Position numbers and translations under genes: made by a program
DNA from: Hydra vulgaris
Lineage: Eukaryota > Cnidaria > Hydrozoa > Anthoathecata > Hydridae
Length of the DNA: 64,000 nt
NCBI RefSeq assembly: GCF_038396675.1
Contig: NC_088920.1
Coordinates: 65,615,001-65,679,000, forward strand
Reading direction: 5' to 3'
The notes under the pieces: model-generated
The model's database searches: none
Told to the model about the DNA's origin: nothing
Seen by the model: the letters and a program-made list of their open reading frames with translations, nothing else
In this document: positions 10,540 through 57,823 of the stretch, piece by piece
Layout: each line of letters begins with the position of its first letter
Numbering within the stretch: position 1 is the stretch's first letter

Positions 10540-12986
10540 AAAAATAATTTTACGGTCATTCACATAAATATAAGAAGCATAAATAAAAATTTTGGCAAAC
10601 TTAAACATTTCCTAATTGATTGCAATTATTTATTCAGTATGATTTGCCTAACAGAAACTTGGTGTTCTGATGAATCAATCCAAAATAACTATAAATTTCA
10701 AATTCTCAATTATAAATGATTATCTTCTGAAAGGAAAGCATTCAAAGAAGGAGGAGTTTTAAATAAATTATTTTTAATAACATATTTCAACATTGTATTT
10801 TAGCAATTATTATTAAACCCACACGGGTAACCTCGAATTCTATTTCTGCTCTATATAACACACTAACAAACTCATTTCTAGATACCTCCTTAAAAGCAGG
10901 AATGATAAAAATTGATATAACAGATCATTTTCCAATTTACTTTTCAATAAAACATGGTACAAAAATATATAATAACTTGAAAAAAAAAATTTATAAAAGA
11001 AAAATTAATAAAAATTCCAGTCAATGTTTCAAAGACACACTATCGGCAGTAGGTTAGGTGAAAGTGTATCAAGAATGTAACCTTGGAAACACAAACTCTG
11101 CATATAATAATTTAACAGATATTTTTCTAAAACACTATAATAATCATTTTCCAATCAAAGAAAAAGAAATCAAAATAAAACATTTGAGCTGTCCATTGAT
11201 CACCAGCGGAATCAAAAAATCTTCAAAAACAAAAAAAAAACTATATGTTAAATATTTGAAAAACAGAAATGAAGATAAACCTATCTACTTATAAACAATA
11301 TAAAAATATTTTCGAAAAAATCAGAAAACATTCTAAAAAAAAATTTATTATTTTAAATTACTTCAAAAAATAAATGGAGATACCAAAAAAACATGGGACA
11401 TCATGAAAGAAATAATTGGAAAAAAATGTATAAAAAGAAACAACTTACCAGAATTATTATAAATGAAACAGAACACAACGATAAGAACTCAATTGCCAAA
11501 CAATTCAACAATTTCTTCGCAAATATTGGCCCCAACATGGCGTCTAAAATTCAAACCCCAAATAACTCCTTTGAAAATTATTTTACTGATATAAATAGCG
11601 AACTAACTTTCAACGGATTAAGCTATGAAGAACTCGAAAATGCAAAAAACTCTTTAAAAATAAATAAAGCGCCAGGAACTGATGAAATTTGTACCAATGT
11701 AGTAATGAGTATCTTTCCGATAATAATGAAACCCATCTTCGAAATATTTAAATCTTCAATTACAACAGGAACCGTTCCAGAGAAATTGAAAATTGCAAAA
11801 ATTGTACCAATATATGAAACTGGAGAACCATATCTACTAAACAATTATAGACCAATCTCAATTCTTCCTGTATTCTCAAAACTCCTCGAACGAATAATTT
11901 ATAATAAATTATACAAATATATAGCAAACAACAACATCTTAATTACAAAACAATTCGGCTTTCAAAAGCAACATGCAACCAAACATGCAATCACAGATCT
12001 TGTAAATAGCATCAATTACTCATTTGTTAATAAAGAATTCGTTCTAGGAATTTTTATAGATCTATCGAAAGCATTCGATACTGTTGATCATGCTATCCTG
12101 CTCAATAAATTAGAAAAATATGGCGTAAAAAATGTTTTATTACTCTGGTTTAAAAACTTTTTGCTAAACAGACAGCAATGTGTTAATACTGATGAAAATA
12201 TCTGTTCAAAATTGCTTAAGATTAAATGTGGCATTCCCAAGCTTCCATTTTAGCTCCCTTATTGTTCTTAATATACAATAATGATCTTCCGAAAGTCTTA
12301 AACAAACTTGATTTCATAATATTTTCAGATGACACTAATTTATTTTATTCATCTCAGCCTATTAAAGTACTCTTTGAAACAACGAATATTGGACTTGAAA
12401 AACTTAATATCTGGCTAAAATCTAATATATTATCTTTAAACACAGAAAAACCAATTACATCTTATTCCATTCCAGCCAAAAAATGAAAAAAATACCAAAT
12501 GTATTAACATTGCTAAAAATAGAAAAAAAAAATATTGAAAGAACCTCAACAACTAAATTTCTAGGTTTACTAATTGACGAAAATATTTCATGGAAAGCTC
12601 ACATTGACTATTTAAATACTAAAATAACCAAAAACATTGGCGTGCGATACAAAGCTAGACCAATGTTATCCCAAGAAAATCTAAAACAGCTTTATTTCTC
12701 ATTTATACAGGTCTATTATACCTGTGGTAATATAGCATGGGCAAGTACCAATAAATTCAGTTTGAAATCACTTTATCGACGTCAAAATCATGCTGTTAGA
12801 ATTGTCTATAAAAAAGATAACTTCACTCATGCTGAACCTTTGTTAAAATTCCTTAATGCACTAAACGTCTATAGAATAAATATTTATCAAAACTTATTGT
12901 TTATGCTGAAATATAAACTCGGGCTTGCCCCATCACATTTCAATTATTTATTATCTTACATTTTATTGTATGTGAATCCAATATAA
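10540..12986 (+). pseudogene. LINE ORF2: endonuclease plus reverse transcriptase, decayed
   Basis: This is the ORF2 of a CR1/L2-type non-LTR retrotransposon. It nicks target DNA with an apurinic-type endonuclease and copies its RNA with reverse transcriptase. Visible in order: endonuclease start FTVIHINIRSINKNFGKL (about 10550), ICLTETWCSDES (about 10640), an internal deletion around 10740-10800, the endonuclease end PTRVTSNS and ITDHFPIYFS (10820-10950), then the RT: KAPGTDEI, NNYRPISILPVFSKLLERI, and catalytic motif A FIDLSKAFDTVDH (about 12050-12095) in a 286-codon frame. A frameshift near 12230 separates this from QASILAPLLFLIYNNDLP and motif C, here FSDD rather than the usual FADD. A further shift at 12483 leads into the thumb region (KFLGLLIDENISWKAHIDYL). 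The usual C-terminal RGP-LWN segment is missing. The element is dead. Confidence 0.92.
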
Positions 12987-15440: not shown

Positions 15441-15969
15441 CTGGACTCTAGTCAATTTTTATATGATGTGAGTAGAATGTATTTCATTATAAAGCCTTAA
15501 ACTAATCGCCTTTAAGATTTGTTTTTGTTTATTGTAAAATTATCTTTAAATATAATTTGTCTCATTTTGACCCGCACATTGCTAACTTTATTTATATCAT
15601 TCCCCCTCCCACCCCCTACCCCACATTGAAAATTCATTCCAACGCCCCTATGCATAATAGTTAAATACCGTTTTTATATAGTATTGAGGTTCACATGTTT
15701 ATTTTTTAATGTAAGCGAAACAAAATTATTACTAAAATTCGCCTTCTTATTAAGAAAAACGCGTGCACGAATGTATTGCAAACTTGCAAGCGGTCATTAT
15801 ACTTTTGATTAATGGCAAACTTTCCAACGTAAAAAATATTTTAGAAAATTTATTAGTTAAACTTTAAACGATAGTAACTTATTTTTTTCTTTTCTTTTCT
15901 TTTTTAACAATAAACATTGTTTGCACTGTATAGTCCTCAAGGCAAAACAATAAAAAAAAACGTTTTCAT

Positions 15970-17634
15970 TTAACTTGACATGCTCAACTTATCAAATTGA
16001 TAGACACCCAAGCCATCGCCGCATCTCTTAGCGTTAGTTATCAACTTGGCAATCTCATTGATTGACTCAACTTGTTCGTTCAAGAACTCTGATTCTAAGA
16101 AGTTGCACAAATGGGGATCACTGTGTTTTCCAGCGATGGCATGAACATTTAACAACGACTCGTTAACTTTCTTCTCCAAATCAAGCGCTGCTTCTAAAGC
16201 TGAAACCGGCGTTTCCACTTGAAATTGGGGAGCTTGAACATCCTTGTAAACTACTTGACCACCACGTTTATTTTGGTATTTTATAAGCTAAAAATTAAAA
16301 CAATAAGAATATCATTATAAAAATTAAAAACCTTTTTAAACGCATTAAAAATAGATATTAAATATGAAAAAAGTTTAAAAAAAAACGGCGTTTACTTTCT
16401 GAGCATGTTCACGTTCTTCGTCTGATTGATGCTTGAAAAATTTGAAGTATCCAGCTAACGCAACATCATCTTGATCAAAACAATAAGCCTGTAAAAATTT
16501 GATTTTTAATTATTATATCCATAATATTTATACTATCTGAACAACATTTATATTATCTGACATTAAAAAGTAAAAAAAAACAATAAACAAACAACATTTA
16601 TATTATCCGAACAACATTTTACTCCAAAATCTGTATTTTTTTAGTAGTATACTCCCTTAAGAATATTTTTCATAAATAGTAAAACCTCATCACTTATTAA
16701 TATAAAAAAAAATATTTTTTTTGGCAATTACAACTTTTTTATTATTAATGGTACTTTATTTGGTAATTTAAAATCGACCGACATATTTAAATTTTCCAAC
16801 TTTTCAAACGCATAATAAATAATCTTTAAAATTTATGCAGTTATAACTTCATGCTCATTTATGAAGGCAAGGCCGTCCTGATGAGATCTTAAAGGAGGGG
16901 ATAGGGGTGACGTATCTGTTCTTTGACGAGTAAGGCCTGAAAAAGGTTTTTGCCGACTAAGATCTGTGAATAATAAAAAAAAGATCTTCGTTAGCTAACA
17001 TTTGCCGACTGCCAACTAAAGTTCCAATTTTGCCGACTGCAGTATCCAAAATATACCAACTAGTTAATTTTCTAGGAAGGTTTGATCCCTTACGCCCTAC
17101 CCTTTTCCTCGGGACGGCCTTTTATGAAGGGTTGAATTTTAATTTTTTTAGTACGAAAATATAGTTGACAAAATTCAAAAGTATTTGAACATTTGTATTA
17201 AAAAGCCTAATTGCAAATATTTCTAACAGAAACCAAACATTATGTTTACCCTCGCAAGTTGTGCACAACAGCATTACTCAACAAAATAAATCAACCAAGA
17301 AATAAAGATAGACGCCAAACTTTTTAACGTGTATGTTTTTTATTTTCTAATAAAAAAGACGCAAAACTTTTAGAGCATCGGAACGAAATTTTTAAAGCTT
17401 ATCAATGGTACTTAAAAAACCATTCATCTATCAAGTGTTCTAATTTTTTTAAGTATTTATTGAAAAATAAAAGCTTTTTGCTTACAACAAATCGAAAAAC
17501 GTACGAATTAAAAAAAAAAAGCTTGAACTTACCATAGAAAGATACTGGTAACTTGCATACAACTCCATGTTTATTTGGTTGTTAATAGCATCTTCACTTT
17601 CTCGGTCAAAGTTCTGTCTGCATTGAGAAACCAT
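15970..17634 (-). CDS. FTH1: Ferritin heavy-chain-type subunit, copy A (3 exons)
   Basis: This encodes a 170-residue cytosolic ferritin subunit. Such subunits assemble into 24-mer shells that oxidise Fe(II) and store Fe(III). The coding exons on the minus strand are 17634-17533 (34 codons), 16488-16396 (31 codons) and 16287-15970 (105 codons plus stop). All junctions are GT-AG and fall between codons. The start is the first ATG after the IRE, giving [15 protein letters not shown]. The ferroxidase centre is complete: E24 and Y31 (ELYASYQY), E58/E59 and H62 (DEEREH), E103 and Q137 (LNEQV). There is no signal peptide or transit sequence. Length is normal for H-type ferritin. A MITE sits in intron 1 (16868-17120). 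A possible AATAAA lies at 15849-15854. Copy B differs at about 15 of 170 residues by hand count, none at the metal site. Confidence 0.96.
16868..17120. mobile_element. MITE in ferritin A intron 1 (253 bp)
   Basis: Short terminal inverted repeats AGGCCGTCC begin and end the element (right end GGACGGCCT). TTTATGAAGG is present on both sides (16858-16867 and 17121-17130); an 8-bp duplication of hAT type would fit with chance flanking identity. Copy B has a single ATTTATGAAAGG at the matching place (about 49315-49326), that is, an empty site. The interior has TTTGCCGACT repeats and no coding capacity. Confidence 0.85.
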
Positions 17635-17691
17635 GATTTTTATGTTTGGGTTATGTATTAAAGTTTAAGATGTAGAGTTTTATAACACCGC

Positions 17692-17719
17692 GCTGGTTCT
17701 AACACTGTAGAAGCACAAC
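17692..17719 (-). promoter_or_regulatory. Iron-responsive element, ferritin A 5' UTR
   Basis: On the minus strand the upper stem TTCTA pairs exactly with TAGAA around the loop CAGTGT. Below it is the ferritin-type internal loop TGC opposite C. The lower stem GTTG pairs with CAGC (one G-U). This is the complete ferritin IRE architecture bound by iron regulatory proteins, which block translation when iron is low. It ends 57 bases before the ATG and about 36 bases downstream of the TATA box, so it should be close to the cap. The same 28 bases occur in copy B. Confidence 0.9.
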
Positions 17720-17754
17720 TATGTTTAACCATCGAGTTTTGAAAAAATGCAAAA

Positions 17755-17854
17755 GTTTATAGATACTAGTCACGTGATAAAACAATTTTGATTGGTTAAA
17801 TTGATTTCACTGGGCTACTGTTGGTTAAAAATGAAGTCATAGTAATTTGATTGG
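17755..17854 (-). promoter_or_regulatory. Ferritin A core promoter (TATA, E-box, CCAAT)
   Basis: Upstream of the IRE on the minus strand are TATAAAC (17761-17755), CACGTG (17771-17776), and CCAAT boxes at 17791-17795 and 17850-17854. The same elements in the same order occur at copy B. The TATA position predicts transcription starting near 17730, just upstream of the IRE. Which factors bind CACGTG is not shown by the sequence. Confidence 0.7.
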
Positions 17855-18563
17855 GCAAAGATAAATATTGCTTTGAAAACCCATAACTCAATTTTTTCAA
17901 TTCTTTTTTGATTAAAATTTTTTTTTAAAAAGCATTAAGATTGAAATTTTTGAAAGACATAAAATGTAAAGTTAATCGTTGGGAAATTAAAGGTTCCTGT
18001 GTTTTTTCTATAATAAACATTCCAATATTTTTTTATGATAAACATTCCAATGTTTTCTTCTATAATAAAAGTTGTTGTGATTATTCTATATTACCATATC
18101 TAAAGCTCTAAATAAACCTTTATTATTTAGAATGAATTTTTCCAATGCATTTCAGTGCGGTTTTTTCTGCCACAATATTGCTGCCAATCACTTGTTGCAT
18201 TGTGCTAATTAGCACAACACAACGTTAGCTAACAATCATCTACAGAACCTATCTACAGAAAACCTAGCTACAAACTAATTAATAATTACTTAATAATACA
18301 ATATTTTTGCAAGTTTAAACTTCAATTTGAAGAATTTTTTTTTTCTAATTTAAAAATAGTTAAATAAAAATATTCAAAAGATGCTTAAAAGTTTGAATAG
18401 AAAGTTGAAATATTTAATCAAAGTCATACTATATGCCAACGGCGTGTAAACTGTTTATTAGAAAAAACGTTTATGTTTAATTCATATGTTTATACTTTTA
18501 TCATATTTACGGTGTATAGAATGTATGTTGAATATATGTATTGTAAATATATACAGTAGGGTG

Positions 18564-29470: not shown

Positions 29471-29776
29471 TTCTGAATGTTTTTAATAATATAGGCATTT
29501 TTTTTATTTTAATTTTTTTTAGTAAAATGTTTTTATTTTTATTTTTTTTACTATAAATCATGCGCAGAGTTTTGCTACATCAACTATCTTATAGCCTGAC
29601 TCGTAACCGAGTGCTGCTACATCGACTATCTTATAGCCTGACTCGCAAGGGAGCGCTACTACATCGGCTGAGGGTTTGGTTGGGTCAGGCAGTCTCTCAA
29701 TTAAAAAAAAAAAATAATTCTGGTCTTGCATTTTAATTTTTTTTTGTGTCAACAAAATACGGAAAAACTTTCTGAC
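29471..29776 (-). mobile_element. VNTR-bearing repeat element, copy 1
   Basis: Starting exactly at the microsatellite, TTCTGAATGTTTTTAATAAT leads to three ~42-bp units containing CTATCTTATAGCCTGACTCG and GCTGCTACATCG, then TTGGTTGGGTCAGGCAGTCT, and ends at AACTTTCTGAC (29767-29776). The same element occurs inverted at 57310-57823. There it has GTCAGAAAGT at both ends as a TIR; here one end is replaced by (CATA)n. Non-autonomous; no coding capacity. Confidence 0.8.
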
Positions 29777-29799: not shown

Positions 29800-31375
29800 G
29801 TTAGAAGTTAGAAGTTAAGAAAATTAAGATGCAGGGCTGAAACAGAAATTAAGGGGGTTTTACGCGGCTAAAATTTGATTTAAAAAAAATGAAACTTTGA
29901 GTTAGTTTTGAGGGAAAGGGCAATGCTCCCACCGCAACATGTTTCTATGCCAGTGTTTATATATATTTATATTTATCAAGTACCAACTTTGGTTTACTTC
30001 CGACTTTCGGTTGTTTATTGCCTTTGGCTTAGCGGAAATGGAGGTTTACTCTTATTCCATATATAAAAACTTAGTAAATATTTGGTTCCATTAAAAAGTT
30101 TAATCAAACTTTAAGTGCTGTTTGGTTGTAGTCAGTTCTTACTGAATCTTGCAATTAATTTATCACTACTTTTCAGACTAGCTACAGCTCTGAATTTTGC
30201 AGCACTTGTATAGTCCTGGTGAGCTTCTATGTTAAAATTTTTTTAGGGGCGAAGACCCGGAAAAGGGTTGTATTGTACGTGGCCGTTTTTTCGCTACAAA
30301 TTCTTGCAAATAATTTTTTACTGCTCTCCAAAACAGCTAGAGCTTTATAGCTTTCAGCAATTGTATAGTCTCAATAACGTTGGGGTGTTAAAAATCAAAG
30401 CATTTTCCAGGACCAACGGTACAAGGGGCAACAAATGCCCTTCCCACACTGAATTTTGTTTTATTAATTGAGGTTAACATTTTTAAAAAAATCATTGAAA
30501 ATGATGTCTTTAAAACGTTTTTAAATTTACTTGGTATTATTGAGGTGATAAAAGCGAAAGTGAATATAACAGAGCACCTCAAAAATATAAAAAATTGAAA
30601 CTGACTAAACATGAAATTATTCCATTTGAAAACAAGTAAGTGCTATTTTTAGGGATTTTATAATATAATTAAGTTTTAGCATTCATCGCTCAAATTAGAT
30701 CTTTATTTGATTTCAACAAAGGAATAGTTTCCCGATTTCGCAATTGCATTTGTATGTTAACGTTGTTCAAGTTATCTTCATTATTTAACTCTTATTCATT
30801 AAATGACATTCTAAAAAGTGTATTTTATGAAAGTCTTGATTTTTAATCAAGACTTTCATAAAACGTAAGTTTTTTTCCGTTAAGAACTGCTTCGCAAGTT
30901 GCGGTGCAAAAGAGTTTTGTTTCGAAAGAAATTTGGTTTTTTATCATTATTTTAAAAAATAAAACCTTAGAAAATTCATATGTTGCAATACTGAAAATAA
31001 AATTTTATTATAAACATTTTGCAATATAAAAATTTTATTTTTTAAAATTATATCCTTTTGACCAACAAATTTTTTTCATAGACTTTAAAACGTCGTTTAG
31101 CGAAAGAGCTCGTTTCGCAAGTGCGACTTCCGTAAGCGCTACTTTCGTATGTAACAAAATAGTTTTATTTCGTAGTTCAACTTACCAAAGGCTACATTTC
31201 GTAAGTAGCATTTGCGAAATGAACATCGACGATTTTTTTTGTTTCGCAAAATTCGGTACGAAAAAAAAAAATTCCTGATTCTCAACATCCTACCGAAAGA
31301 ATTTTATTTTTCCGATATTGTACGAAATCTTCCGGTTAACAACTCTACTTTATTAAATTTTTTTTCTCTTATTCT
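29800..31375. other. No gene; small repeats and a hairpin
   Basis: A diverged direct repeat of about 58 bases occurs at 30178 and 30332 (shared ACAGCT, GCA..TTGTATAGTC, GTGTTAAAA). A hairpin with 18-bp perfect arms lies at 30823-30863. From 30880 to 31330 there are repeated TTTCGTAAG / GCGAAA / TTTCGCAAGT motifs, like those near 28750-29000. No protein-like frame was seen. Confidence 0.5.
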
Positions 31376-31384
31376 CGTTTTCAA

Positions 31385-31505
31385 GATGTAATTGAAAACT
31401 TGAAAAATGTAATTAAGAAACGTTAGATGTAATTGAGAAGCTGAAGGTTGTAATTGAGAAACGTAAAATGTAATTGAGAACGTGATAGTTGTAATTAAGA
31501 AAAGT
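31385..31505 (+). repeat. Left subterminal iterons of the Tc1-like element
   Basis: Six tandem units of about 21 bases, each starting TGTAATTRAGAA. Regular spacing of two helical turns suggests transposase or host-factor binding sites. Function is inferred from position. Confidence 0.75.
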
Positions 31506-31927
31506 TTATAATATTGATTCTCAGAACAAATTTCTCTGTATTTTTACCTTAATTTACCTTGTAATTTAGGATTGGATCCTAATTTGGCCAAGGTGGCCGT
31601 ATGGGTTTGTTTTTAATAAATGATAATATACTATCAAAAGAATAAAAAAGTGCTGAAAAAGGCATTTGCGGTTTTAGCGGTAACTGTAAAAATCCTTTCG
31701 GGTGTTGGAACTTTCCTTTTTTTTGTGTTTTATTTGAGAGGTCAGATGAATAATCAATAAAATGTAAATCATTTATTTACAAAAAAATATAAAGATTTAA
31801 ACCGAATTTAAACAATATTATTAAAAATCATAGCAATATTCAGTTAAAAAAAACTTTGTTCATCTTCCATATTTAAAATCATTGCGTAATGTTTCGTAGT
31901 ACGTTGAACAGCACACGCACAATCACC

Positions 31928-32964
31928 TCATATTATTATATTTTTTTCCACTGGACTAGTTTTTTCCAAATACTGCATTAGTTGTTCCACAATCCCAGCA
32001 CTGAATACAAATGGAATGCAAATTGCATTTTTAATGTTACTTTTAATTTTAAACCAGATTATTTCCACCGGGTTTAGCATTGGACTGATGGGTTCTAAAC
32101 GTAACAACTGAGTTGTAGAATTTTCAAACATCCTTTCCAAACGGGCGTGATATGGATTATTGTCTGTTACAATGACCGAATCATCTATCTAAAAGACTCC
32201 CAGGTTTAACCCACTGGTGAAACACAACCAACATCTACTCGTTATAAGAACCTGCATTAAGTGATTCAATGCGAGTTTCTATCATGACGACATTTGTTTT
32301 TGATATAGTTGCAATCAAATGTATATTTGCGCCTTTTGAAGCAGGCTTTTTCATTATTGCTCTTTATTCCTGTTTGGCACGTCCTTACGTTTTTCTACAA
32401 AAAATATTAAAACTTGTTTTATCCAACTAAACTGTATGATGACCGTTTGTTTTCAATACTGTTTCTTGTACAAAGTACCTTGTGCTTTTTTTTAAATGAA
32501 AGCAATCTGCCTTTGAGCTAATTTTTGTTGATGTGCTGACGCTAATATTATATTGTCTAATATTTTTGTTATGATCCTCAGTCAATTTTTTTGGTTCAAG
32601 TCCACCTTAAAAAGTTCCGATAAAATTTGAGTTTCCGCTGCCAGTTGAAAGTTAACTTATATTTGACCCCTAAATTTTGTGCCAGAGTCACCCAATCTTC
32701 ATTTTGCTCAACGCATTCAACAACTCTACTTATGTCTTTCGATGAAGATAAAACGTAATGTTTTCTTTCAACTTTTTTGGTTGTATGTATTTCATGCCGA
32801 CAAATTGGACAAGTTAATTCTGATTGTTCCAGAAGCGGATGTAAGTTAATTTGGTGAAATAAATGCTGACACGGATTCAATTTAATAGCAAATCTTTGGG
32901 TCATAGTGAACTGACAAATAACACAACGATCTTTCAATTCCATTATTATTGCTGGTACATACAA
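31928..32964 (-). pseudogene. RING finger + HTH + DDE (Tc1/mariner-type) transposase, broken
   Basis: The 5' frame (32964-32596, 122 codons) starts with a RING-H2-like finger: C14-x2-C17, C32-x-H34-x2-H37, C52-x2-C55. The sixth ligand position (40) is N instead of C. It continues into an HTH-like segment, NEDWVTLAQNLGVKYKLTFNW. Downstream in shifted frames come LDKTSFNIFC (first catalytic D), KGANIHLIATISK, and an open stretch with VIVTDNNPYHARLE (second D) and ISPMLNPVEIIWFKIKSNIK (third acidic residue, E). There are 32 residues between the second D and the E. This is the IS630/Tc1/mariner catalytic core, which cuts and joins element ends. A stop after residue 122, others around 32200-32500, and the missing RING ligand mark it as inactive. 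Fusion of a RING to this transposase type is the unusual feature. Confidence 0.85.
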
Positions 32965-33064
32965 ATGCTTAATTTGATATTGTTAATTTATTAAAATTCA
33001 TGCTACAGAAAATCTTTTATAATGGCTTATAAGCTTACATTGTAAATTTGCAAATACAAATTAT

Positions 33065-33290
33065 ATTTTCTCATTTACATATTACGATTTCTTAATTACA
33101 ATTTATGTGTTCTTAATTACAAATTACAATTTTTTTATTTAAATGTGGCGTTTTTCAATTACATTTTACGGTTTCTAAATTACATTTTTTGTTTCTTAAT
33201 TACATATTACGATATATAAATTACATGTTGAGTTTCTCAATTACATATTACAATTTCTTAATTACAAATTTCATGTTCTCCATTACATCT
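33065..33290 (-). repeat. Right subterminal iterons of the Tc1-like element
   Basis: About ten units, seen on the plus strand as TTTCTTAATTACAWATTACG, in inverse orientation to the left array and more diverged. They lie between the RING-finger start and the right end. Confidence 0.75.
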
Positions 33291-33299
33291 TTAAACGAT

Positions 33300-34740
33300 T
33301 TAGTATTAGTACAATTTAACTTAAGATATAATTTCAAAATATATAAAAGTGATAGTGTTTGTAAACAAGTTGGGGAGGGATTTTAAAAATGAAAGGGAGT
33401 GTGAGATAGCTCCTAACTAAGTAACTGGATTTAAAATTAATTTTAAAGTTTGAATGGAACTTATAGTTTTACTATGATTAGGAAGAAATCCATGTTTTAT
33501 TGAGAGTTCAGAATGTTTAAACAATCAAGTTTTTGGTACTTGATAATTACACAAATAGTGTTTTGTTCGATATTCTTGATATTAATACTGTAATTTAATA
33601 GTAATAGTAGTGTCGTTTCACTTTCGTTTTTAAAGTAGTTTCTAGGCTTCTATGCGCGGATTAGCATTCTAGGCTTCTATGCGCGGATCAGCATTCTACG
33701 CGGACTTTCAAGCAAGGTCTGCAAGCAAATTAGAGCTAATAAATTTTTAGTTTCAAGAAGAATTGACGTTGTTAATTGTTTAATTTTACAATAAAAATTT
33801 AAATAAAAGTTTGTTTGTTGTTAGTTGTTTGTATTTTTATAGCTTGTTTCCTTTTCTTTAAATACAATAAGACTGTTATTTGTGGACATGTAAGTGTATT
33901 TGCGTATATTTCAGTATATTTCTCTGTATCTATATGTATATTCAAAAAATAAGGTATAGAAGAAAGTAAAAAAAAATTCTGCTGAAAGTTGTCAAAAGAA
34001 TGTTGTGTTATGCTTCTTTTTAAGTTATTTGAATGTACATTTAGATTTTTAAATTTGTTTTTAAATGGTTTCATCATTTTTATTACTTTAGATAAAGAAT
34101 ATACTAACCGATATTGCCAAAAAATATGGATTTTAATAAATCCTATATTTAAATTGTTATTCGTTTTTATTTTAAAAATTGTTATTTTAAATAATAATAA
34201 ATATTTTAATTTTTGTTTATTAATTTTTGACCTCAATGGTAAACTAATGAGTTAAATTGTAGAGGTTATATAAACCTATATATCATATATTGTAAAGCAA
34301 TCGCATTTGATTTTTTTTTTAATTAATTGCGTAACATCAGGCATTTTGATTTTTCATTCTTTATTTTTTTCTTTTGAATTGTTTTAAATAGTCAAACTAC
34401 TTATATATATTTAAGACTTCTTATATTTAAGAAACCAAGTAGTGAATCTTACTTGGTTTTGTAAATATAAAACTGTTTTATATTTAAGATACCAAGTAAG
34501 ATTCAACATTGTGTTTTTGTTTTTAATACCAAATAATATCTTTGTTATTAGGATTAAAGGTTTTTGTTGATTTATACTTGAAAATTATTATTTATCTTTT
34601 TGTAGATATGTTTAATACTTTGTAAATATGTTTACCACTATAGACTAATAATATTTTGATTTTTTTGTTTAATTACTTTTTTTTTTTGGATGGTCGATAT
34701 TAGGATTAAATAAGTTACTAAAAGAAATACAATCAACTTA
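33300..34740. other. No gene; small duplications
   Basis: CTAGGCTTCTATGCGCGGAT is duplicated at 33642 and 33669. ACCAAGTAAGATTCA and its complement form an inverted repeat at about 34433-34503. Open frames on both strands over 33799-34255 are AT-rich shadows of each other and not credible. Confidence 0.5.
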
Positions 34741-43683: not shown

Positions 43684-44285
43684 TGACCACACCTACCCGT
43701 GCAATCATAACCATTCCTGGAGACCAAATATGGCCAGATTTGATTTTCCAAATATGGTCAGATTTGATCAATTACTTCCAAATATGGCCAGATTTGATCA
43801 ATTACAGATTTGATCAATTACGACCAAATATGGCCAGATTTGATCAATTACTTCTAATTAAACACACAACATGTACCATTTAATTGAAAAACCATCGGGA
43901 TATTCCAGAACCACCCTGGACCATTCCTAAAATGATCAACTAAGTGGTTATGACCACTCTTGAAAGACATAATATGCCCAGTTTTAAATTCCCTCATCAT
44001 AATTACCTTTATTTAGACATACAACATGTCCCATCTAATTGAAAAACGTCGGAACATCTCAGGATCACCCTTGACCACCACTAAAATGACCATTTGAGCG
44101 GTTATGATCAGTTCCAAAGACCAAATATGCCCAGATTTGAATTCCTTGACTGCAGTTACCTGTATTTAAGTATAGTAGATGCCCCATCTAATTTAAAAAC
44201 GATCGAAACACCCCATGACCACCCTTGATAACCCCTAAAATAATCACTTTTATGATTACGACCACTCCAAAATTAAAATGGAGTT
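43684..44285. repeat. ~155-bp satellite with nested ~30-bp expansion
   Basis: Three to four units share GTTATGACCACTC, GACCAAATATGCCCAGATTT, CATACAACATGTCCCATCTA and AAACGTCGGAACA; anchors at about 43948, 44102 and 44258 give the period. In the first unit, CAAATATGGCCAGATTTGAT(CAATTAC) is itself expanded about four times (43725-43850). The frame reading IWPDLI repeats is an artefact of this. Confidence 0.85.
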
Positions 44286-47290: not shown

Positions 47291-48515
47291 AACTTTATTA
47301 AAATAATTCCATTAAATTGTAGCTTTTATAGGCATGATTATATGATTGAGAATAACTATGATGTTGAAACAATTAAAATGATGACTAGTGGAAATTAATT
47401 TGAATGTTTAAGATCAAAAATGTTTACATCCGACAGATGAAAACCTAGTTTTTTTATAAAATTGTTTTTATAATAACTTTTTTAATAATTTTCAAAAAAT
47501 ATTTTTGAAAGTTATTAAAAAAGTTGGATATTTTTAGGAGAAACAAATTTTAAAACAATAAATTAATTAGTTTTGCAGAATATTTAAAGTTAACACAACA
47601 GTATTGTATTTAGAAGGTTATATAATAGAATTTGAAGTATTTTATTCAAACAATGATTGCAAACTCTTCATGCGAGTTTATATACAAATATAAAATTTAT
47701 GTCTGATGAACTTAAAGTTAAAATTTTAATACAGTAAAACCTACATACAGTAGACAGTATCTTTTTTAACTTCGTTAGGTGTGCCTTATGAAAATGATGC
47801 TATTGCATTGCTTTGTTAATAAAGTTTTTAGTTAAACTTTCGTTTACGAAACATTAAGTTAGGAAATATTAAACGTGAAAGTTCATGTATTGCTCGGGGG
47901 TGTGGAAATTATGAAATATCTGTTTGGGGCAGGGAGTTATGAAATGTTCCGTAAAAACCGATACGAAACAAAACAAGTTTATTTTGTTTCGTAAATAACA
48001 GTACAAATCAAACAATAATTTCATGTTTCGTAACAACATTATGCGAAACGAAACAAGATTTACGTGTTTCGTATAAATGTGACACAAAACAATATGATAT
48101 TTTTTGTTTCGTAAAAACGGAACGAAACGAATATTCACATTTTGTACTGTTTCAAACCGAACTTCCGAGAGGGTACGAGCAGACGCAGACCCTTAGACGC
48201 AACACAACACTGTTATCTAAGCGCTTCTATATAGTATTGCTATTATATTAATTTTTGAATATGAGCGAGACAAATTTATTACAAAAATACGCCTTTTTAT
48301 TGTGTGCATGCTGTGTGCCTTTTTAAAATGTGTGCATGCTTGCATTCTGTTATACTAATAATTCGAAAACTTTCCTACATAAAAATATTTAAAAAAATTT
48401 AAAATCAAATGAAGTAAAGACTCTTTTTTTATTAAGATTTCTTATGTTTTTAACAATAAACATTGCTTGCACTGTATAGTCCTCAAGGCAAAACAATCAA
48501 AAAAAACGTTGACAT

Positions 48516-49740
48516 TTAACTTGACATGCTCAATTTATCAAATTGATAGACACCCAAACCATCGCCGCATCTCTTAGCGTTGGTAATCAACTTGGCAATT
48601 TCATTGATTGACTTAACTTGCTCATCCAAGAATTCTGTTTCTAAGAAATCGCACAAATGGGGATCGCTGTGTTTTCCAGCAATGGCATGGACATTCAGCA
48701 ACGACTCGTTTACTTTCTTTTCCAATTCAAGCGCTGCTTCTAAGGCTGACACTGGCGTACTTACTTGAAATTGGGGAGCTTGAACATCCTTACAAACTAC
48801 GCGACCACCACGTTTATTCAGGTATTTCATTAGCTAAAAATTAAAGAAATATTGTTTGTAAAAATTAAAAGTTTTTTAAACATGATTGAAACAGACATTA
48901 AAAATGACTCTTACTTTCTGAGCATGTTCACGTTCTTCATCTGCTTGATGCTTAAAAAACTTGAAGTATCCGTCTAATGCAACATCATCTTGATCAAAAT
49001 GATAGGCCTGAAAAATTTTATATTTTAATATTTATTAGACTACCCATATTTATAATATATTTTATGTATAATATATTATAACATTTATATTTTCAGAACA
49101 ATTTCAGAGTAATTATTGATACAGAATAATTATTGATTACTATTAAAAACTTTTTCATTTAATAATAATAAATGTTTTCTCATTTCGCAAAAAAAATTTT
49201 TTTAAATGTTCTTCATTTGGTAATTTAAAATAGAAAGAACCATTTAAAAATTGTCTTACTTTTCAATGGCATAATAAAAATAATTATTAATTTATACTGT
49301 TTAACTTCATGCATATTTATGAAAGGTCGAATTTAAATTTTTTCACAAAAATATAATTTATAAAATTCAAAAGTATCTAAACGTTTGTATACAAAAGCGT
49401 TATTACAAATATTACTAACAGAAACCAAACAATTTGTTCACCCTCACAACAGCATTACTCAACAAAATAAATCAAGCAAGGAAGATAAAGATTGGCGCAA
49501 AACTTTTAAAACTTATTATAAAAATTTAGAAACTTTATCAAAGGCACTATAAAAGTTTTGAATTATTAAAAAATAAAAGCTTTTTGCTAACAACAAATCG
49601 AAAAACGTACGAATTAAAAAAAAAAAGCATGAACTTACCATAGAAAGATACTGGTAACTTGCATACAACTCCATGTTTATTTGGTTGTTAATAGCATCTT
49701 CACTTTCTTGGTGAAAGTTTTGTCTGCATTGAGAAACCAT
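48516..49740 (-). CDS. FTH1: Ferritin heavy-chain-type subunit, copy B (3 exons)
   Basis: This second complete ferritin gene encodes 170 residues. Exons on the minus strand: 49740-49639, 49007-48915 and 48833-48516, with the same sizes and codon-boundary introns as copy A. The N-terminus is [15 protein letters not shown] and the ferroxidase residues E24, Y31, E58/E59, H62, E103 and Q137 are all kept, so it should be an active iron-oxidising subunit. Differences from copy A by hand count: D10H, R11Q, C37H, A46D, S56A, I67M, Q70L, Q76R, Y79C, E90S, D101E, N127D, S131T, N135D, E139K. The changes look conservative or lie on the surface, and coding is undamaged, pointing to selection on both copies. 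Intron 1 is about 630 bases and lacks the MITE. A possible AATAAA lies at 48428-48433. The 3' UTR shares a well-conserved block with copy A (48464-48497). Confidence 0.96.
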
Positions 49741-49795
49741 GATTTTTATGTTTGAGTAATGTTTTAAGTTTAAGATACAAATATTAAAACACCGC

Positions 49796-49823
49796 GCTGG
49801 TTCTAACACTGTAGAAGCACAAC
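49796..49823 (-). promoter_or_regulatory. Iron-responsive element, ferritin B 5' UTR
   Basis: Identical over all 28 bases to the element of copy A: lower stem GTTG/CAGC, internal loop TGC/C, upper stem TTCTA/TAGAA, loop CAGTGT. It ends 55 bases before the ATG. The flanking UTR has diverged and changed length, so the identity is likely maintained by function. Confidence 0.9.
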
Positions 49824-49855
49824 AAAGTTTTAATGAATTTTGAAGATGTACGAAA

Positions 49856-49956
49856 ATTTATAGACAAAAATCACGTGATAAAATTATTTTGATTGGTTAA
49901 AAATGATTTAACTGTATTACTGTTGGTTAAAAACAATGTTATAGCAATTTGATTGG
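49856..49956 (-). promoter_or_regulatory. Ferritin B core promoter (TATA, E-box, CCAAT)
   Basis: Minus-strand TATAAAT (49862-49856), CACGTG (49872-49877), and CCAAT boxes at 49892-49896 and 49952-49956. Order and spacing match copy A within a few bases while the DNA between has changed, which supports these as the working elements. Confidence 0.7.
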
Positions 49957-50209
49957 CCAAGTTTGATTGCTTTGAAAACCCATTTCTCGATTTTTTTCGA
50001 TTTTACTCGATTTTTAAAACTATGTTTCTGAGAAACCTTAAAAATCTTTAAGAACACTTGAAGATGTAAAGTTATGGATTGCCAACGTTCTAATTTAAAT
50101 TTCTATGATTCAAGTTCGTTGCAAATATACTTCATAAGTACTATATAATTGTGAATAAATCTTTATTATTCGGTTTTTAAATGCAGTTCAGTGCCGTCTT
50201 TTGAGCAAC

Positions 50210-50555
50210 AAATCGCTGTTAATTATGCTATATGTTATGCCAACGATTACTTCGCGCTTTGCGTTGCGCTCACTTTTGACGCATTGTTTTGCGCCATCGA
50301 TTACTTAGGCGCGTTTTGTTGTATTAACAATCATTTTGACACGTTTTTTGTGCTAACATTCGATTTTACGAGTTTTGTCGGGTTAACAACTAGTTTCTCC
50401 ACACAAAAAAAAATATCCACAACTGTTACATTCTCCTCTGGAGTCTTCAGAAGGTAAGTTTAGCGAAATGATAAAGAAAAAAATTTATTATTACCGGAAC
50501 TTTATTATTAACGGATATTCAGGTGCTAAAAAGTTTGATACTTTTCTACATAAGC
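50210..50555. other. Extra ~330 bp in copy B, relatively GC-rich
   Basis: Copy A goes directly from its GCCAATCACTTG segment to TATCTACAGAAAACCTAGC (about 18190-18270). Copy B has about 330 additional bases here with repeated CGATTACTT..GCGC and GTTAACAA motifs. An 88-codon frame crosses it, but nothing in it looks like a known protein. Either an unrecognised insertion in B or a loss from A. Confidence 0.5.
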
Positions 50556-51620
50556 TATCTTTAGAAAACCTAGCAGCAAATTAATCATATTACATTTTTA
50601 TTTGAAAATAATTTTTCATTCAGATTTAAAAATTGTGGAATAAAAATATTCAAAAGTAGTTAAAAAGTTTGAATAAAAAATTGAACAGAAATATTTCAAA
50701 TCAAAGTCATGCTTTATGCCAAAGGGTTAAATGATTTATAAGAAACCAATGTTCGTGTTTACTTCGTATGCTTATAGTTTTATTAGGCTAAAGTGTATAA
50801 TAGAGTATAAAATGAATGTTAAATATAAAATATACCAAAGTATATATGTAAATTATATGTAACAGAACATATATACAAAGCATATATAATTAAATATATA
50901 ATAAGTCTTTTAAAAAATATAAATAATCTAGTATGTGCTAATTCATCACAATAATCTTTTAATGATAAATGCGTTTAATCATGCGTTAATTCAATTCATA
51001 CTTAAATCTTCACAACCTGGTCTCTGGTAATAAAAATTTAATATGATAACTGTTTATGAAAATATACAATATATTATAACGATTCAATAAGTCTTGTGAT
51101 GTGTCTTAAAAAAATATCATATGCTAATATAAAAAAAATAATTATGTTTTTGTCCAAAAAAAATTTAAAGTTATTGAAACATAAAAATTACTTATTAGAT
51201 CACTCAATAAAAATAAAAATAAAAATTATATAGCTTAAAACGATTAACAAAATTACGCGACTTCATATCTGCATTTACATTATTTTCAGTGCGCATGTCA
51301 AGCAATTTTGATATACAATGCTAGATCTTGCTTTTTTATTTATCGCTGATGTATATTTGTGTAAGCAAATATCCATATTCATTACGAAGTGAAGGCACTA
51401 CAAGCGGTGCAACCGCACCGAGCGCATGGGCGTCAAAAGTCTGAAAATTATTTTCTTGTTCTATTTTTATTTTTAAGTTGAAAAATTATAAAGTTAAAAC
51501 TTAATGTTGAGTTGAAATGTACGAAAACTATTATTTTTATAACTTATTTATATAACTATTTCATGGCATTATGCCAACAAACAATCAATGTAAATATTTA
51601 TAGTTTATCTATCGGGCAGG

Positions 51621-57309: not shown

Positions 57310-57823
57310 GTCAGAAAGTCCATATTTTGTTGACAAAAAGTTAAAATTAAATTTTTTTTTTATTACATTTATTTTTTTCATTAATTGATAGACTGCCTGC
57401 CCCAACCAAACCCTCAGTCGATGTAGCAACACTCCCTTGCGGGTCAGGCTAAAAGATAGTAGATGTAGCAGCACTCCGTTGCGAGTCCACGCTATTTGTC
57501 AGTCGATATAGCAGCACTACCTTGCGAGTCAGGCTATTTGTCAGTTGATGTAGCAGCACTCCCGAGTCAGGCTATAAGATAGTCGATGCAGCAACACTCC
57601 GCGCATGATTTACAGTAAAAAATATAAAAGAAAAAAACATTTTATTAAAAAAATTAAAAATAAAAACATTTTATTAAAAAAAATTAAAATAAAAACATTG
57701 TTTATATTGTTAAAAACATTCAGAATGTTTTTAAAAACATTCTGGTCAATTAATTTTGCGTTTTTGTGGGTTTTTTAAAAAACGATCAGTTTGTTATTAA
57801 ATTAATGGTTTTAACTTTCTGAC
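57310..57823 (+). mobile_element. VNTR-bearing TIR element, copy 2 (nested)
   Basis: GTCAGAAAGT at 57310-57319 and ACTTTCTGAC at 57814-57823 are a 10-bp TIR. Inside are TAGACTGCCTGCCCCAACCA, five ~42-bp units (GATGTAGCAGCACTCC..TGCGAGTCAGGCTAT), then AAACATTTTATTAAAAAAA repeats. The 29471-29776 copy matches inverted with three units. No coding capacity and no clear target duplication. Confidence 0.8.

Follow-up and report, generated by a model that had tools for sequence, protein, structure and literature searches.

The presence of a RING finger beside the remains of a DDE transposase in the genome of Hydra vulgaris raises the question of whether the two were ever parts of one protein and, if so, what such a domain could do for a transposase. 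RING fingers often attach ubiquitin. The locus lies in a stretch of 64 kb, G000:C1:65615001-65679000 (hereafter, the window), in which a preliminary description had placed a Tc1-like transposase with a RING-H2-like domain, within an element running from 31376 to 33297 and bounded by arrays of a 21-bp unit. We delimited the element by comparison with other copies of its family (14 sequences at the 5' end and 15 at the 3' end, a few of them incomplete), and both ends of the window copy were recognised 1927 bp apart. The result is one decayed copy at 31374–33300, within a few bases of the extent first proposed, with its transposase on the minus strand. The same comparison identifies the target-site duplicates as TA at 33301–33302, on the 5' side, and as TT at 31372–31373, on the 3' side, which we read as a decayed TA. 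Just inside them lie the terminal inverted repeats, at 33047–33300 on the minus strand (5') and at 31374–31501 on the plus strand (3').

An open frame of 128 codons (32596–32982, minus strand), delimited as an ORF and by its Pfam matches, holds the RING and the first HTH; the start methionine of the family falls at position 32943 on the same strand. From the first to the last zinc ligand, the RING-H2 finger occupies 32800–32925 (minus strand), as judged from the Pfam profile zf-RING_2, matches to RING structures in the PDB, and the ligands themselves. The profile match in this frame (E 3.7e-7, 30.7 bits, cut-off 27.3) bears out the domain first described, but the finger of this copy keeps seven of the eight ligands, C33 having become N. 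The first HTH, in a PAI-like position, is assigned to 32629–32748 (minus strand) because it shares the frame of the RING, gives weak matches to HTH profiles, and coincides with helices of the structural model. The remains of the DDE catalytic domain, recognised with DDE_3, spread over two frames at 31928–32426 (minus strand); the first D lies at about 32421–32423, the second at about 32162–32164, and the E at about 32063–32065. DDE_3 matches 31928–32188 (minus strand), in a frame other than that of the RING (E 1.2e-6, 28.8 bits, cut-off 28.6), and the joined DDE pieces of the window give E 1.1e-8. The window copy is dead. It is 82.8% identical in nucleotides to the family majority described below, it has six stops in the majority frame, and it carries six indels in the coding part plus a seventh, of 146 bases, at the last codon; outside the 128-codon frame, the coding sequence is broken into other frames. 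The G+C content of the window is 27.9%.

The family is large. When compared with the genome (911.5 Mb in 15 contigs), the RING-HTH frame gave 150 scored matches of 1005 candidates, itself included; the other matches among these 150 are 58–74% identical to it, and all extend into both domains. A 46-bp sequence from the element end has 689 matches in the genome with at most three mismatches, while the same sequence written backwards, used as a control, has 0. Hence, the family has hundreds of copies. In 20 loci picked for their long open frames (L029–L048), a single frame often contains both the RING-HTH and the DDE match, and the full protein of one copy, used as a query, matches several relatives from residue 1 to 381 in a single frame, with stops that differ between them. 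One copy, L050, stays open over 387 codons, with the beginning of its RING in another frame. The majority sequence was built from 50 distinct copies, picked because of a similar RING, an open frame, or similarity over the full protein. It forms one frame of 419 codons from stop to stop, 401 from the methionine, which encodes a RING-H2 finger, an HTH, a second HTH, and the DDE domain, in this order. The majority and the end-to-end matches of several copies thus uphold the placement of the RING directly before HTH and DDE. The search for intact copies with a continuous frame succeeded in part: RING, HTH, and DDE stand in one frame in many copies, but none of the copies read in the genome is intact from end to end. 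The mean divergence of the copies from the majority is 15%, three badly aligned ones included, and their tree is star-like; the main amplification was therefore an old burst.

The copies also define how the element inserts. Both ends begin with CACCTTTTCAAGATGTAATTGAGAACTTGAAAG, are inverted, and are flanked by a 2-bp duplication (TA). We recognised both ends in 25 copies of 1585–2289 bp, including that of the window. TA is found on both flanks in 14 of them and on at least one flank in all 25, and no copy of the 25 has identical flanks longer than 2 bp. In 39 of 50 flanks, a C precedes the TA. One insertion, L032, with TA and CA as its flanks, sits in repeated DNA, so that empty versions of its site could be sought. 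With its flanks joined as the query, 40 matches were scored: its own two flanks and 38 that span the join. In each of the ten empty sites read, the two bases occur once (CA in eight, TA in one, AA in one), while the filled site has them twice. This shows that the target duplication is of 2 bp; that these are TA rests on the 25 copies. We considered whether the C before TA belongs to the element end, and this is ruled out because C precedes the two bases in all ten empty sites; it is part of the target, where the only insertion preference seen is CTA/TAG. Elsewhere in the genome, at G000:C1:66982960-66983944, two perfect 46-bp ends stand face to face, 985 bp apart, probably an internally deleted, non-autonomous derivative of the RING family.

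Both ends of the window element carry inverted arrays in which a 12-bp core, TGTAATTRAGAA, is repeated every 20–21 bp. The left array has six units, at 31387, 31408, 31428, 31449, 31469, and 31490, where the family majority has about ten. The right array has 12 positions in register, from 33287 down to 33058, of which nine match the core with at most one mismatch. The arrays first described are thus real, but their unit is not strictly 21 bp long, since the spacing alternates between 21 and 20 bp. Outside both arrays, the window contains a single further match to the core at this threshold. The majority 5' array comprises 12 units, with spacings of 21, 20, 20, 21, 20, 21, 20, 21, 21, 21, and 21 bp, and fills the larger part of the 363-base stretch that separates the start codon from the element end. 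The 3' array comprises ten (21, 20, 21, 20, 21, 20, 21, 21, and 21 bp), the outermost 3' end being blurred in the majority. Of 20 loci, 17 have at least five units on the 5' side and 15 have at least five on the 3' side, which shows that the arrays are a trait of the family.

Two findings would have spoken against the fusion first described: intact relatives without an in-frame RING, or a RING exon belonging to a separate gene. We examined 150 DDE matches, of 1033 candidates. For 70 of them, the matches listed upstream include the RING, in whole or in part; in six of these, coverage starts only at residue 24–37. We read 28 of the other 80, and 19 match a 66-residue query composed of the RING and its linker, two of them (L092 and L105) just over its last 16–19 residues. 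The remaining nine have no RING match; seven keep the HTH, starting at seven different residues. These differing breakpoints make the RING-less copies among the 28 look like cases of private damage rather than a RING-less subfamily, and no fully intact relative, with or without a RING, was seen among the copies read. Nor did any of these copies show the RING as an exon of a separate gene: it lies inside the arrays and, in many copies, in frame with HTH and DDE.

Other transposases of the same genome provide a wider comparison. We took ten loci of about 1.5 kb (L107–L116) from the best 150 of 14708 DDE_3 candidates; by eye, they represent about six families (L107, L110, and L115; L108 and L109; L113 and L114; L111; L112; L116). 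These IS630-like proteins resemble the RING family in their HTH-HTH-DDE order, DDE_3 core, and match to the IS630 profile. They differ from it in that neither tblastn (E up to 1) nor the ligand pattern, sought in six frames, reveals a RING, and in the distance between their last two acidic residues, mostly 34 instead of 32 (34 in seven loci, 33 in one, two unmatched by the pattern). Eight of the ten align with the RING family over long stretches, at 25–28% identity, from behind the RING onward; L111 and L112 align only around the last acids. As far as sampled, the RING is thus an N-terminal extra of the RING family. The ten loci have open frames of 334–365 codons without stops, and these elements may be young.

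The RING of the majority of the 50 copies conforms to the ligand pattern C-x2-C-x14-C-x-H-x2-H-x2-C-x11-C-x2-C. All eight ligands are present in 24 of the 50 copies, a set partly chosen by RING similarity and open frames, and zf-RING_2 reaches E 3.4e-9 in family members. Its relatives in the PDB are ARK2C/RNF165 and Arkadia-type ligases (best E 3e-6 for the window frame). The majority and the window copy both retain I9, P46, and R49, positions that we take to contact E2-ubiquitin. The HTH profiles are weak and below their curated cut-offs, with best values in family members of 0.0011 (HTH_17), 0.035 (HTH_28), and 0.039 (HTH_23). AlphaFold did not resolve the RING fold, either without an alignment (mean pLDDT 38.5) or with 24 aligned sequences (mean pLDDT 55.2). 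The latter model contains two groups of three helices, the first at residues 68–103, and an RNase H-like core. These helices and the IS630 profile match described below indicate an N-terminal pair of HTH domains. The Mos1 transpososome leads the fold matches of the model in the PDB, at E 1.7e-12 but a TM-score of only 0.34–0.38, and Metnase and Sleeping Beauty are also among its best matches.

DDE_3 was found in all four members tested (best E 6.3e-14). The spacing of 32 residues between the last two acids, proposed from the window, recurs in the majority and in L050. The attribution to Tc1 did not hold: the Tc1 family proper has DD34E spacing, whereas the RING family has DD32E. On L050, the NCBIfam equivalog profile for IS630 transposases gives E 1.3e-27 over residues 63–327, with 97.1 bits against a cut-off of 100, which L107 and L108 exceed. 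Judged by this profile, the core stands closer to IS630 than to the Tc1 family proper. The best label is a new RING-bearing family of the IS630-Tc1-mariner group, its novelty being judged from open-access papers; a catalogued consensus may exist.

Transib and Chapaev elements make target duplications longer than 2 bp. The Hydra family differs from them in its DDE_3-type core and its 2-bp duplication, and no Transib-, RAG1-, or Chapaev-named family matched among the Pfam results listed for its members. What it has in common with Chapaev and with RAG1 (Transib superfamily) is the RING in the transposase: in the accessible parts of one paper, a RING finger is described in the transposases of two Chapaev subgroups and in RAG1, that of RAG1 has ubiquitin ligase activity, and the RING finger and the Chapa domain are stated to occur in no other known transposable elements (PMC4411706). 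In the portions of the open-access literature available to us, we found no IS630-Tc1-mariner transposase described as carrying a RING, and the word RING is absent from the main texts of three papers (PMC7325037, PMC7386202, and PMC12220107), to the extent that these were accessible. One of them describes HvSm, a Tc1/mariner family of Hydra and Schmidtea with TA duplications, full-length copies of 1.7–2.8 kb, DD34E spacing, and TIRs of 15, 20, and 56 bp (PMC7325037, in part). HvSm shares the host, the TA, and this range of copy lengths with the RING family and differs in spacing and ends, a distinction drawn from the available published description alone. Repeated sites within inverted ends are also known from Sleeping Beauty, with two transposase sites per end (PMC7827188), and from Bari1, with three (PMC3828361); from what these sources show in the parts seen, the RING family is set apart by its approximately 12 and 10 phased units, its DD32E core, and its RING. 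The long, internally repetitive TIRs are like those of Galileo and Foldback, and the Galileo transposase belongs to the P-element superfamily, according to an excerpt of the source (PMC3573991).

Whether the RING was useful to the element can be addressed through its substitutions. The window copy has 51 differences in its first 112 codons, of which 26 are shared with L025 and 15 with L023; by this sharing, the three are an older subfamily. Changes found in at least two of these copies and in at most one other are synonymous in 11 of 21 cases, against 18.3% among singletons (P 0.0004), and include no stop; for the RING alone, six of ten are synonymous against 16.3% expected (P 0.002). As a control for recurrent mutation, doublets of other copies are synonymous in 57 of 270 cases (21.1%) and include 19 stops. 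A looser count gives 17 of 33 (P 1.7e-5), and nine of 15 in the RING (P 0.00018); we prefer the strict one, which covers three old copies and 21 sites. This analysis was done after a tree-based one, in which L025, L027, and L048 were left out of the 50 aligned copies before tree building (L025 was later used for the first 112 codons only). There, the RING and the first HTH have internal-to-terminal N/S ratios of 1.02 and 1.74, which shows no constraint. For the second HTH, DDE, and the C-terminus, the ratios are 0.48, 0.72, and 0.78, which speaks for some constraint on these parts. The star-like shape of the tree and the stops on its internal branches weaken this test, but its result still counts against constraint on the RING. 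One of the two tests points to constraint, during the active life of the element, on the RING and the first HTH; the excess of synonymous changes in the old subfamily suggests that the RING was probably useful. Purifying selection would mean usefulness, not which function. Codon 33 encodes Asn in the window copy and Ser in L025, both without Cys33 and with a common first-position change, so that some members of the older subfamily may still have transposed with only seven ligands in their RING. This shared loss argues against an indispensable active E3.

Our preferred reading, which we put at a probability of about 60%, is that the window holds a dead copy of an element of the IS630-Tc1-mariner group, with the order RING-H2, HTH, HTH, and DDE and arrays of about 12 and 10 units, in which the RING would have served as an E3 ligase in cis. 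The HTH pair would read the TGTAATTRAGAA units, and at each end many transposase molecules would line up along the same face of the helix, since the phase of 20.5 bp is about two turns. By family membership, the array-bound transposase would cut the element out and paste it into TA. Array binding would probably also repress the transposase promoter because the start codon is separated from the element end by the 5' array. As a best guess, the RING would work in cis as an E3 module whose substrate is the array-bound transposase; self-ubiquitination might limit the dose of the transposase or help the complex to disassemble after strand transfer. A ubiquitin ligase activity is reported for the RAG1 RING. 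A more tentative extension is that a ubiquitin-ligase domain joined a transposase here for a second time, independently of the line of Transib, Chapaev, and RAG1. The IS630-mariner transposase would then bring its own E3, gathered on two arrays of about a dozen phased sites, and loading of the arrays would trigger a self-ubiquitination that restrains or dismantles the transpososome. Found in an IS630-mariner family, the RING suggests that transposases acquired this domain more than once. The role of a RING for a transposase becomes open to testing in a protein as small as about 400 residues, with the phased arrays as an unusually multivalent substrate.

Other readings give the RING a different role or none. 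It may be a structural domain, binding zinc or mediating dimerisation without ligase activity, that joins array-bound molecules or adds DNA contacts. The selection result fits any function, and the change shared by the window copy and L025 at Cys33 means that ligase geometry was maybe lost while the element was mobile. Nevertheless, the majority has all eight ligands, the best matches are RING-H2 ligases, and the presumed E2-ubiquitin contacts I9, P46, and R49 persist in both the majority and the window copy, so we regard a purely structural RING as possible and somewhat doubtful. A RING working in trans would ubiquitinate host factors, such as silencing proteins or target nucleosomes, and so favour insertion or escape from silencing. 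The growth of the family to hundreds of copies and the reported ligase activity of the RAG1 RING (PMC4411706, in its accessible parts) agree with this; the data nonetheless point to no host target, insertion sites show just the CTA/TAG preference, and we consider such an activity unlikely.

The two remaining readings start from the broken state of the window copy. Its 128-codon frame is open while the rest is broken, as would be the case if the RING-HTH part survived the death of DDE as a stand-alone repressor or a host gene. This is very improbable, given that the window copy is without one zinc ligand and that many of the listed copies have stops in the RING-HTH part, so that some open RING-HTH frames are expected by chance. 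The frameshifts that cut the RING frame from the DDE frame in the window copy could also make the RING a host exon beside a transposase remnant, or an acquisition of one copy. We give this almost no credence, and it is already contradicted: the 150 scored RING-HTH matches, window copy included, reach into both domains, several copies match end to end in one frame, and the RING lies inside the arrays.

Relatives of the RING-bearing transposase were also sought in contig collections. Searches of viral contigs with the RING-HTH frame, the DDE piece, and the family alignment yielded no confirmed relative, and neither did searches of genome contigs with the composite and the family alignment; those with the alignment covered two RING patterns each. 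A DNA pattern for CPIC-R...DWV retrieved 20 viral stretches, none convincing by tblastn (best E 0.004, with the DDE query). These results say little about animals because the collections hold viruses and prokaryotes.

The window contains several other features. Two arrays of a 42-bp unit, at 29501–29776 and 57310–57666, lie in inverted orientation 28 kb apart and are 85% identical over 172 bp; they may mark the two ends of a single, very large element or terminate two copies of another repeat-ended element. A duplicated block (15669–18501 and 48222–50783) consists of pieces that are 74–84% alike. Within this block, a match to a ferritin-like exon at 49519–49857 on the minus strand is weak (Pfam Ferritin, E 0.00041, 20.7 bits, below the cut-off of 24.5). 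Remains of a reverse transcriptase are found at 11357–12250 (RVT_1, E 4.7e-17), and tandem arrays with periods of 46 bp and 154 bp at 43724–44241.
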